A stretch of 64,000 bases of DNA from assembly GCA_025435555.1 (NCBI GenBank), contig JAIWWG010000041.1, forward strand, positions 228,815 to 292,814, given 5' to 3'. The notes beneath the pieces are model-generated. The model made no database searches. It worked only from the letters and a program-made list of their open reading frames with translations, and was not told where the DNA came from. The first letter of the stretch is position 1, and each line of letters begins with the position of its first letter. The translations under genes and the position numbers were made by a program. Positions 40,773 through 44,905 of the stretch are shown piece after piece. The stretch comes from Chytriomyces cf. hyalinus JEL632. Taxonomy: Eukaryota; Chytridiomycota; Chytridiomycetes; Chytridiales; Chytriomycetaceae.

Positions 40773-41931
40773 TTATCCGCGGATCAGTCCTTGGACAACT
40801 TCACGCAGCATGAGGTACAACGTCGCAAAGTCCCCAAACACGCGCACCCAGTTCACTCCCAGCGTCAGATACATGGCACACTCAACAATCTGGTTCGTGG
40901 CACCGCAGCAGTCCCCAATCACCCCCCCGAGGATCCGGTTAATGTACCGACCCATGTAAACCGTGAGCCACACAGCAACAACCCACACCATGATCATTTG
41001 CACGACAAAGTTCTCGTGGGTGGAAAGAGAAATGCCCACAATCACAAAGTTCATCAAGCTCGCCATGGCCAAGCGCATGGGAGTCACCGACAAGAGGAAC
41101 TCCTTTCCAGCTGCACTCGCATTCTCAACGTATTTGTATTTTTGAAGAAGGTACGTGCAGCTCCAGCGTCCAAACGCGTGAGCTGTGACAAACGTTCCAA
41201 CGAGCTGAGACAGTTTATGCAGATGCGCATACAACAAAGGAAACTTGGCCGGGCCCGAGCTGATCAACTCCGGATTCAGCATAATCACTTGCTGAAGATT
41301 GACGATTGCGCCAATCTTGGTCGTGAGTGTGAGGATCAGTGCCAGCGCGCCAAATGTGCCAATGGCGGAATCACGCATAATTCGGAGAACTGATTCCCGT
41401 TTCCAACCTCCTCCAAAGCCATCTCCCATATCTTTTTTCAATTGTATGTGTGGTGTGAGTTCTTCATAGACGCGGATTCAAAGCAGTACGTGTGCTCACC
41501 AGCCAGGCCGTCCTCGTGAAAACCGCCCGTGAGCCTGATTGTTGCCGCAGTGAATGCAATGGCAGGAATGATTGGGGAGTGTGGCAGCATGTAGTACGCG
41601 ACGCAGAAGAAGAACGAGCCAAACAGGCCGACAATGATGCCGATCGCAGGGTAATAGACGGTGGAGAGCGACATCCAGTACTTTGAGAAACCGTGCGAGT
41701 GGTTGACCCACTTTGGAACAGAGATGCGAGTAAAGAACTGTCGGTTCAAGCAGCGTCAGTATCTTGGAACAGAGAGCAGGAAACACGGCTTACCATGACG
41801 CCGTAGTAGAATGCCGTCAGCTCCTGGACAAAGAAGGAGGAGCTCACGGCCTCCTTCGGGATCACGGGTTGGGCCTCTGCTGGCACGTCTTGCTTGACAG
41901 CGGTTGTGTTCTCGTTTGCTGCGTCCCCCAT
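40773..41931 (-). CDS. cobS: Adenosylcobinamide-GDP ribazoletransferase (cobalamin synthase, CobS/CobV), eukaryotic with introns
   Basis: Joins adenosylcobinamide-GDP with alpha-ribazole (or its phosphate) to give adenosylcobalamin (phosphate): the last assembly step of the nucleotide loop. Three exons (41794-41931, 41500-41737, 40773-41431) give exactly 1,035 nt, 344 residues plus stop. Splicing creates ELTAFYYGVMFFTRISVPKW (bacterial CobS: FxTRxPVP) and GGFHEDGLADMGDGFGGGW followed by RIMRDSAIGTFGALALIL, the acidic active-site block and the most conserved CobS motif. Six or so membrane helices follow, with the late RILGGVIGDCCGATNQIVE motif (bacterial GGxTGDxLGAxxE). All key acidic residues seem present. 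The N-terminal 30 residues are a eukaryote-specific extension, not an obvious signal peptide. It faces cobU. Confidence 0.93.
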
Positions 41932-42023
41932 TTTTTGATTTGTGGCGATGAAAATCAAAAAGAAAAGAGACGAAGACACGGTGAAATAAACACGCAAGAA
42001 ATACACGTTCAGGGATATTAAAA
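41932..42023. promoter_or_regulatory. 92-bp divergent promoter shared by cobS and cobU
   Basis: Only 92 bp separate the two ATGs. A/T-rich tracts near each start (gtttatttc on the cobS side, gatattaaaa just before the cobU ATG) are probable core elements. I see no bacterial-type promoter, Shine-Dalgarno sequence or cobalamin riboswitch box here. Confidence 0.5.
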
Positions 42024-42877
42024 ATGAGTAACGGAAAAGTGATTCTTGTTCTCGGAGGAGCTCGTTCGGGCAAGTCCTCGTTTGCCGAGAAGCTCGCATC
42101 AACAGCCCCCGTCGATCCCAAGTCCGGGCTCCTCGAGATCAGCTACATTGCGACTGCTAAGAGGTCCGACGCAGAGGTAAACGGCCTTATGGCTGCGTCA
42201 TGTGCTCGGTAGCACTCGTCAAACTCACTCTTGTCTCGCTCAGATGACCGCCAGAATCGAACGGCACGTGCTTGACAGGGACACGAACGCAAATGTGCCC
42301 ACAACTATTGCCAGGTCTCAACTCAACATCTTTCCAAACTAGTTAATTCCGCTTTCTAAACGCAAGTACAACCAGCGTGAAAAACATCAGCTGGAAGACA
42401 ATCGAATGCCAGGCGAACCTTTCGCAGCTGTCGCTGCCAGCCACGGCATCTGTGGTCATCGTGGACTGTCTCACTATTTGGCTGAGCAACTGGATGGGCA
42501 CTTTGGGATGGCCCGTGGACGAAACGATCGACGATGAAGCTGTGGCGTGGGCTGACAAGGTGGATGTGACAGCGCGTAAAGAAATGAATTCGTTTCTGGA
42601 CCGAATGACGAGTGAGGGACGCACTGTGATTCTTGTTGCGAATGAAGTCGGACTTGGGATGGTTCCAAATGGTGGGGAGGCAAGTTTGCTTACTGATCAA
42701 GTGTTTACTGACTGAAGGGTTTGTTTCTTAACAGGCAAGATATCGCGGTATTTTAGAGATACGCTGGGACGGGTGAACCAGGATATTGGACGGAGAAAGG
42801 ACACGGAACGCGTGTACTGGATGGTGGCTGGGTTTGGGCTGGACATCAAGAAGATGTCGCAGGAAGCGACGCTGTGA
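42024..42877 (+). CDS. cobU: Adenosylcobinamide kinase / adenosylcobinamide-phosphate guanylyltransferase (CobU/CobP), eukaryotic with introns
   Basis: Phosphorylates adenosylcobinamide and then attaches GMP, making the substrate for CobS. Four exons (42024-42176, 42244-42314, 42367-42671, 42735-42877) sum to 672 nt, giving 223 residues plus stop. Motifs: VILVLGGARSGKSSFAEKLA (P-loop, residues about 6-25), ISYIATAKRSDAEMTARIERHVLDRD with the His at about residue 59 aligned to the guanylylated His of bacterial CobU, VVIVDCLTIWLSNWM (Walker B-like), VILVANEVGLGMVPNG, RYFRDTLGRVNQDI and VYWMVAGFGLDIK. The last intron uses a GTGGGG donor inside the VPNG motif. A stop-overlapping GTGAGT could be a donor, but the family usually ends here. 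No targeting peptide seen. Confidence 0.94.
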
Positions 42878-43073: not shown

Positions 43074-44905
43074 ATGATCGTCCCCATCCTCGCCGCCGTC
43101 ATGGCCACTGTCGCTGTTGCCCAGGCCCCAACTGCAAACCTCCAGACCTGTGTCGCTGAGGCCGACTACAACGCCTCGTACGACTACTTCCCCGAGAAGA
43201 TCAGCAACCGTAAGTTGCTTAGCTCATCACCCATTCCGCCTTCTCAGCCACCAAAAATGGCCTGGCAGATGAAAAGCTGCTGCGATCAAGCTAGTTTCCT
43301 GTTCCTAATTCCATGTATTGATGCGTATTGTCACAGGGGCTGTCTCCAAGAACCTCAAGTACACATACAACAACAACTACAAGACCATCGTCAACAGCTT
43401 TTCCAACGAGACCATCGTGCTTTACCAGTGCGGTACTCCCATGCCCACTGTTGCCGGCGCCACTGTCGTGATCGCTGTTCCCATCCAGAACATGACCATC
43501 GCCGACACCACCATCGTGCCATACGTGGAGTTGCTCGGTAAGCTTGACCAACCCCCGCATTCCCTGTCATGCATCTGATACACATACCCTCATCTCGCAG
43601 GAAAGCGCTCTGCCCTCAAGTACGCCACCGGCGGAACTCTGGCGTACATCTCCTCGCCATGTGTCCAGGCCGAAATTGCTGCCAACCCAAAATCTTTCCA
43701 GGAAATCGACAGCAAGAACATCACCGCTGGAATTGAGCAGATTCGCAGGTGATTATTCGCGTCAAACATTGTTTGTTTTGGTCTTGCTTTTTTTTTTTGT
43801 TACTTTTTTCTTCATTTTTATTTGTTGTGTTAATCATTTTTTATCGCCGGCGATTAACATGCGATCATTCACACATCAGCACTGACGCATACCTGCACTA
43901 CTACGGATCATACACTGCGAACGTTACCAACGATATTACATTCCCTGCCTCTGCTGACCCTGGTGTCATGGGCCGTCTCGGATGGCTTGGGTACGCTGAC
44001 AATTGATTCTTCCGAAACTTCCTTCATTCAGCTGACCTCCTGCATTCGTAATCAGAGTGACTGGGTCCCTTTTCAACCTCGAAGGACTTGCCAACACCGT
44101 CTCCAACACCATTTACGACAACTACGACGCCCTTTCCAAGAATGCTAACAAGGCCTCATTCAAGCCAGTTGTTGCCTGGATTGAATACTTCCAAGCTTAC
44201 GCCGGAAGCGACACCTACCCAGCTACCCCAGCTTCGTGGAGCATCAATGCCGCCCAGTACATTCTGGACTACACTACTGCCGCCGGAGCCACCTCATTTG
44301 TCCCAACCAGCAGCGCCTTCAAGGCCTCTGGTGCTGCCATGCAAGTTACCAAATACACCTACACCACCGCTGCTGACCTCCTTGCCGACTTGAAAGAGGT
44401 TGACATTGTGATTGACTTGTCATTCTACGATGTCAACACTACCGACTTTGGCAAAAGCTTCGGGGCACGTGCCGACTTCTTGACCGAGAGCACCAACGAG
44501 CACAAGTTTATTCAAAAGCGCCAGATTTACATGTTTAACGGAGAGACCAGCCCTGCCAACGGAGGAAGCAGCTTCTTTGAGAGTGGAACTGTTGAAATCA
44601 ACATTGTTCTTGCTGACTTGATTTCCGCGACCCACCCAGAGACTCTCCCCAACTACAACCCCACCTACATCCGTAACATCTTCAACAACGACCCTGACGT
44701 CGTGACTGCCTCCCAGTGCGCTGACTTTAAGATTGCCGCTGTCGCACCCGTTGTGAAGGACTTTGTTGCCCCAACTGCCACTGCTTTGCCAGTCGTCTCC
44801 GCCACCGCTGCTGCGTCTCCCAAGGCTACCGCCAGCAAGTCTGCTGGAGTTGTGAACTCTGCCGTTGCTGGAGTGGTTGCCTTTGCTGCTTTGTTCATGC
44901 TCTGA
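43074..44905 (+). CDS. Secreted GPI-anchored substrate-binding-like protein (BtuF/CBA1-like candidate)
   Basis: About 500 residues in five exons. It has a clear signal peptide (MIVPILAAVMATVAVAQA) and a typical GPI-attachment tail: an A/T/S-rich linker, then a hydrophobic end (SAVAGVVAFAALFML). The mature part looks like a helical-backbone periplasmic binding protein: NYKTIVNSFSNETIVLYQCGTP, then VPIQNMTIADTTIVPYVELLG, a SSPCVQ motif, and RLGWLGVTGSLFNLEGLANTVSNTIYDNY, which resembles the E-W-(I/L)-x-F-L-x-x-x-F-N-x-E-x-x-A-N segment of BtuF/FecB-like and CBA1 proteins. CBA1 is the algal surface protein needed for vitamin B12 uptake. The CBA1 link is my inference from this pattern plus the cobU neighbour 197 bp away. 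A siderophore- or metal-binding relative is the main alternative. Confidence 0.62.

Follow-up and report, generated by a model that had tools for sequence, protein, structure and literature searches.

Completing vitamin B12 from an incomplete precursor is usually credited to bacteria and archaea. In this report, we examined a window of 64,000 nucleotides from the genome of a chytrid fungus, Chytriomyces cf. hyalinus JEL632, in which positions 40773-42877 hold two divergent, intron-bearing, full-length genes, CobS on the minus strand and CobU on the plus strand. Our main finding is that these are probably intact chytrid nuclear genes for cobinamide salvage, a process in which the fungus would not make the corrin ring but would attach the nucleotide to scavenged cobinamide. 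The enzymes themselves are known; it is the host that is unusual, and it carries most of the salvage branch. The pair is organized as follows (coordinates in the window):

40773 to 41431, minus strand: CobS exon 3, 659 nt with stop; encodes MGDGFGGGW and GVIGDCCG; matches PF02654 in the raw genome search too
41432 to 41499, minus strand: CobS intron 2, 68 nt, GT..AG; splicing restores GLAD/MGDGFGGGW
41500 to 41737, minus strand: CobS exon 2, 238 nt; matches PF02654 in the raw genome search
41738 to 41793, minus strand: CobS intron 1, 56 nt, GT..AG
41794 to 41931, minus strand: CobS exon 1, 138 nt; N-terminal extension of low conservation, plus the first conserved segment (from the alignment)
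41932 to 42023, no strand: gap between both ATGs, 92 bp; putative shared two-way promoter
42024 to 42176, plus strand: CobU exon 1, 153 nt; P-loop GGARSGKS
42177 to 42243, plus strand: CobU intron 1, 67 nt, GT..AG
42244 to 42314, plus strand: CobU exon 2, 71 nt; RIERH
42315 to 42375, plus strand: CobU intron 2, 61 nt, GT..AG; acceptor not certain
42376 to 42671, plus strand: CobU exon 3, 296 nt; EVGLGMVP
42672 to 42734, plus strand: CobU intron 3, 63 nt, GT..AG, preferred; the alternative donor 42684 gives a longer protein
42735 to 42877, plus strand: CobU exon 4, 143 nt with stop; FRDTLGRVNQD

The original prediction of two divergent genes with 92 bp between their ATGs was borne out by the start codons and the gene models, and this gap presumably acts as a two-way promoter for both. 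CobS runs from an ATG at 41931 to a stop at 40775-40773; its exons (138 + 238 + 659 = 1035 nt with stop) encode 344 amino acids, and both of its introns (56 and 68 nt) have GT..AG borders. Its active-site motif is cut by the second intron, and splicing restores it exactly. CobU runs from an ATG at 42024 to a stop at 42875-42877 and has three introns, for a protein of about 220 amino acids. The four residues that donor 42684 would add are present in none of the 12 aligned fungal CobU sequences, and the placement of intron 3 at 42672-42734, which gives 220 amino acids and 663 nt with stop, is therefore better supported. The exon sum proposed earlier holds for CobS (1,035 nt) but not for CobU, for which 672 nt amounts to 224 codons without a stop and implies an intron at 42684-42734. 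The borders listed above are the predicted ones, with those of CobU at 42672 being the better supported. As for the acceptor of CobU intron 2, the public Chytriomyces confervae protein model (P0121) is 12 residues longer there, perhaps owing to a mis-called splice site in either model. Further downstream on the plus strand, at about 43074-44905, lies an apparently intron-bearing gene with a hydrophobic, signal-like start, whose largest frame (44036-44902) gave no Pfam match.

Judged by sequence, both proteins match their Pfam families far beyond chance: CobS scores 157.8 bits with PF02654 (cut-off 23.2; profile positions 2-207 of 207) and CobU 136.2 bits with PF02283 (cut-off 27; positions 1-168 of 168). 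These whole-profile matches agree with the earlier description of both genes as full-length. Alignment with the solved Salmonella CobU (1c9k) upheld the claim of an intact P-loop, RIERH and EVGLG, as the chytrid protein keeps the GGARSGKS P-loop, RIxxH, EVGxGxVP (as EVGLGMVP) and GRVNQ. Among fungal CobU sequences, GGARSGKS is found in 12 of 12 and strict EVGxGxVP in only 7 of 12. We take the histidine of RIxxH to be the guanylylated one. In CobS, HEDGLADMGD fits HxDxxxDxxD and GVIGDCCG fits GxxGDxxG, two motifs whose aspartates are reported to be needed in the Salmonella enzyme (PMC8092220). The first is present in all 21 CobS sequences checked and the second in 19 of them, in a set that includes two sequences without an organism name (P0015 and P0017); GxxGDxxG is lacking in P0006, a partial protein, and in P0113, a model that matches poorly. 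A loss of active-site residues, for which the alignments had been proposed as a check, was thus not seen in the key motifs of either protein. A plain hydropathy scan of CobS gave three strong hydrophobic stretches, so that its membrane nature would follow mainly from homology, and a search of solved structures by sequence gave no match for CobS.

Neither protein reaches the cut-offs of the NCBIfam equivalog models searched: CobS scores 178.7 of 273 bits with NF001277 and 79.5 of 110 with TIGR00317, and CobU 145 of 161 with NF004469. These naming cut-offs apply to prokaryotic equivalogs, and we filed the two proteins under their Pfam families only. Such scores fit a diverged eukaryotic branch, and it is from family membership that we infer function.

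Partner genes were sought in the whole genome (37,782,357 bases in 242 contigs) by family searches run exon by exon in six frames, in which a much-interrupted gene could be missed. CobU and CobS each occur at one place. CobT is present in two copies, on contigs C178 (L033, C178:104800-112800) and C36 (L034, C36:27800-35800), each of which yields 365 amino acids once four introns are spliced; the two regions align in pieces of 5.2 and 0.7 kb with about 92% identity. CobT scores 308.8 of 319.3 bits, below the NCBI cut-off, and 306 of 306 with a subfamily model, at the cut-off. It keeps the GEGTGA segment of the solved CobT, the glutamate of which is presumably catalytic. Among enzymes that use or process B12, MetH is present, as are methylmalonyl-CoA mutase, on two contigs (C8 and C241), and an adenosyltransferase, also on two (C174 and C90). 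The loci found on two contigs may be unmerged haplotypes or recent duplications, the CobT regions being about 92% identical.

The salvage role is strengthened by CobT and by the B12-dependent enzymes that this genome also encodes, and the earlier suggestion of cobinamide salvage thus appears likely. We counted in its favor the whole-profile Pfam matches, the motifs kept in CobU and CobS, the CobT copies, MetH, methylmalonyl-CoA mutase and the adenosyltransferase, as well as the single genomic place of CobU and of CobS and the one fungal clade in each careful tree (see below). Against it we counted the sub-cut-off NCBI scores, the absence of an identified CobC and of a convincing BluB as base source, the strict EVGxGxVP in only 7 of 12 fungal CobU sequences, and the three strong hydrophobic stretches to which the hydropathy scan of CobS came. 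CobU, CobS and CobT all miss NCBI equivalog cut-offs (the score with one CobT subfamily model equals its cut-off), so that a shift of function, say to a different nucleotide transfer or to lipid-phosphate transfer, is conceivable; the catalytic motifs are kept, however, and a matching CobT and B12-dependent enzymes accompany the pair, which makes such a drift quite improbable.

Searches for other enzymes of cobamide metabolism delimit what the fungus could do. CbiB and CbiZ had no match in the genome, although the same searches matched 8 and 5 of 14 control genomes, respectively. The best BluB match, which scored 27.2 bits over 43 positions where the cut-off is 150, was not accepted, as this search was weakly positive in all 14 controls and exceeded the cut-off in three. 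That CobU, CobS and CobT are late enzymes of the complete pathway might suggest that cobalamin is made entirely from scratch, but of the two enzymes searched for that bear on this, CbiB was not matched where 8 of 14 controls gave a match, and BluB gave no convincing one; we rejected de novo synthesis on the absence of a CbiB match and give it practically no credence. The best CobC match reached about half of its cut-off (81.8 of 162.9 bits) and resembles a sugar bisphosphatase. This candidate, on contig C170, was rejected for its presumed likeness to 6-phosphofructo-2-kinase/fructose-2,6-bisphosphatase, judged by motifs in the frames read. A weaker candidate on contig C172 has the look of a generic histidine phosphatase. 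Phosphatases unrelated to CobC might serve instead.

The roles of CobU, CobT and CobS are established knowledge of these families, and from them the following route can be proposed. If the pair is expressed, CobU would phosphorylate adenosylcobinamide, its presumed substrate, and then convert the product to adenosylcobinamide-GDP. CobT, encoded elsewhere in the genome, would join a lower-ligand base to phosphoribose, giving an alpha-riboside phosphate with any suitable base available. CobS would join both halves, its activity being placed at a membrane, and a putative phosphatase would remove the last phosphate. MetH and methylmalonyl-CoA mutase would use the finished cofactor. Bacteria, rather than synthesis by the fungus, would supply the ring and, judging by the genes found, the base dimethylbenzimidazole. 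This scheme resembles the CobU/CobT/CobS/CobC assembly of Salmonella enterica in having full-length CobU, CobT and CobS with key motifs kept; unlike that system, the chytrid has introns, divergent CobS and CobU genes, CobT on other contigs and no CobC identified.

It was also proposed that the fungus remodels pseudocobalamin. The genes would then mainly serve to turn pseudocobalamin or other cobamides into cobalamin, a conversion also carried out by some algae, the loop being opened by some other enzyme and rebuilt by CobU, CobT and CobS. According to Helliwell et al. 2016, Chlamydomonas is among the algae that carry COBT, COBS and COBC, and pseudocobalamin is remodelled (PMC4850488); C. reinhardtii and P. 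lutheri achieve this without cbiZ or cbiB. The chytrid is likewise a eukaryote with CobT and CobS and without a CbiZ or CbiB match. However, CobU, which activates cobinamide, does not appear in the text on those algae (PMC4850488), and its presence in the chytrid therefore points to cobinamide as the entry point. According to the same source, C. reinhardtii does not grow on cobinamide. Because no known loop-opening enzyme was found among those searched (CbiB and CbiZ), remodelling is possible but less supported, and we regard it as unlikely to be the main function; salvage of cobinamide is the reading we prefer. The top non-algal match for COBS named by Helliwell et al. is Sphaeroforma arctica (PMC4850488), and other relatives of fungi may therefore carry COBS. 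By name, no algal or holozoan COBS was among our best 120 of 1218 matches, nor among the best 120 of 7998.

Fungal names head the matches to both proteins. For CobS, 19 sequences (15 from chytrids and 4 from blastoclads) were among the best 120 of 1218; for CobU, 12 sequences from 11 taxa, all chytrids, were among the best 120 of 7743. The latter list and that of 7998 matches were each drawn from 8000 scored candidates. Fungal groups were assigned from taxonomy records for C. confervae, Paraphysoderma, Quaeritorhiza and Obelidium, and the remaining taxa are those that we take to be chytrids or blastoclads. Seven taxa appear in both lists (among the best 120 of each). The check for the same pair in other chytrids was positive as regards proximity: among the matches listed, CobS and CobU adjoin by locus tag in Podochytrium (HDU98_010832 and _010833) and in Phlyctochytrium planicorne (HDU97_002744 and _002745), in each case on contigs equal in size. 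The contigs are also equal in size in Chytridium lagenaria and differ in Siphonaria, Dinochytrium, Nowakowskiella JEL0407 and Cladochytrium. From locus tags and contigs, the two genes are therefore neighbors in some relatives, but not in all. Podochytrium sp. JEL0797 has two CobU sequences (P0124 and P0128) on different contigs, one of which adjoins CobS by locus tag.

Genes of a bacterial type in a fungal assembly call for caution, and two of the fungal sequences, both from Siphonaria (P0002 and P0130), are labelled UNVERIFIED_CONTAM by GenBank. Bacterial contamination or a misassembly at the CobS/CobU locus is nevertheless contradicted by several observations. The pair has five predicted introns. 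In the tree columns used, CobU shares 98-99% identity with the protein of C. confervae, a member of the Chytridiales (taxonomy record), and the host is therefore presumably that species or a very close relative; the 92% shown in the search listing stems from the difference between the public model and ours near intron 2. The fungal sequences form one clade in each careful tree, fully supported for CobU and with 97/100 for CobS. Finally, 5 of the 10 window frames scanned match Pfam families (HECT with UBM, UBA, HSA, WD40 and ABC transporter), and the HECT, UBA, HSA and WD40 domains are eukaryotic. On the strength of the introns, the fungal clades and the neighboring genes, we rejected contamination, the chance of which we consider negligible: this is a fungal nuclear locus, and the eukaryotic gene structure ascribed to it in a chytrid is confirmed.

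Fungi had been regarded as standing apart from B12. This view holds for Dikarya but not beyond them, as 50 of the 59 non-Dikarya fungi studied by Orlowska et al. 2021 have B12-dependent enzymes, and the nine that have none all belong to the Chytridiomycota (PMC8085122). The chytrid studied here resembles the non-Dikarya B12 users in having MetH, methylmalonyl-CoA mutase and an adenosyltransferase. It adds CobU, CobS and CobT: Orlowska et al. tracked eight use and processing enzymes, and their text mentions neither CobU, CobT, CobP and CobS nor cobinamide (PMC8085122). A 2023 fungal-genome paper, citing that work, places 'cobalamin synthesis proteins' among the families lost in fungi (PMC10406608), and Dorrell et al. 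2024 state that no eukaryote synthesizes B12 (PMC11439496). Among the open-access papers listed, none deals in its title or the start of its abstract with fungal CobS, CobU or cobinamide salvage. Automatic annotation in public databases has already given several of the fungal proteins the name CobS or cobinamide kinase. If salvage is confirmed, fungal B12 metabolism would extend from using the vitamin to finishing it. Some chytrids would then be predicted to live on incomplete corrinoids, which would link these fungi in a new way with aquatic bacteria that make corrinoids. The locus, with the pair still adjoining in some relatives, would also lend itself to the study of how introns and promoters are acquired by bacterial cofactor genes once they are in a fungus.

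To examine the origin of the pair, we built trees from chosen sequences. The quick trees, with support values weaker than those of the careful trees, comprised 13 fungal and 66 other sequences, or 13 fungal, 16 Chloroflexota and 35 others, for CobU; for CobS, one comprised 21 sequences labelled as fungi (including P0015 and P0017, the partial P0006 being left out), 38 of 80 bacterial loci and 18 others, and a second 19 labelled as fungi (including P0017), 12 Chloroflexota and 30 others. The careful CobU tree held the query, 9 of the 12 fungal sequences, 9 of 16 Chloroflexota regions and 13 of the 52 loci with CobU. In it, the fungal sequences form one clade (100/100) that groups at 96/96 with seven of the nine Chloroflexota sequences; the remaining two fall immediately outside this group. 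By this tree, fungal CobU groups with Chloroflexota, although at the 5% level neither a union with Bacteroidota (p-AU 0.083) nor one with Betaproteobacteria (p-AU 0.098) was rejected. In the careful CobS tree (the query, 10 named fungal sequences, 7 of 12 Chloroflexota CobS and 14 others), the fungal sequences again form one clade (97/100), without a settled sister group; union with Chloroflexota CobS was not rejected in the quick tree (p-AU 0.284) or in the careful one (0.523). Three metagenome sequences (P0241, P0244 and P0256) were nearest to fungal CobS in quick trees, a nearness that the careful tree did not resolve. The protein phylogeny that had been called for thus placed CobU with Chloroflexota and left the sister of fungal CobS unsettled.

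Bacterial gene order bears on the idea of a single bacterial transfer, later flipped. Within the fetched flanks of 80 bacterial loci, CobT was found in 68, CobU in 52, and CobU together with CobT in 52; cobU, cobT and cobS are often close together. CobS was found in 12 of 16 Chloroflexota regions, always immediately upstream of cobU and in the same orientation. A CobU match was found in 178 of 400 genomes from the phylum of an Anaerolineales locus, the ten best having 44-49% identity and 106-126 bits; the genome of that locus itself gave none. CobU was also matched in four of the ten genomes searched to which other loci belong, best in a betaproteobacterium (44%, 80.2 bits). The bacterial loci best found by the fungal CobS profile are mostly from Bacteroidota and Betaproteobacteria. 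One transfer of a neighboring pair, later inverted, is possible, and so are two bacterial sources for CobS and CobU. Because CobU nests among Chloroflexota but the source of CobS is not settled, we leave a single joint transfer undecided, a union of CobS with Chloroflexota not being rejected. As a tentative view, with somewhat less than an even chance of being right, chytrids would be the first eukaryotes recognized to have CobU joined to CobS and CobT and to complete cobalamin from scavenged cobinamide and a scavenged base, CobU having come from a Chloroflexota-like donor and CobS from elsewhere, early in chytrid evolution.

One CobS (L084), from a contig assigned to a Lokiarchaeota metagenome-assembled genome, groups among Bacteroidota sequences, which would reflect either gene transfer or a binning error.
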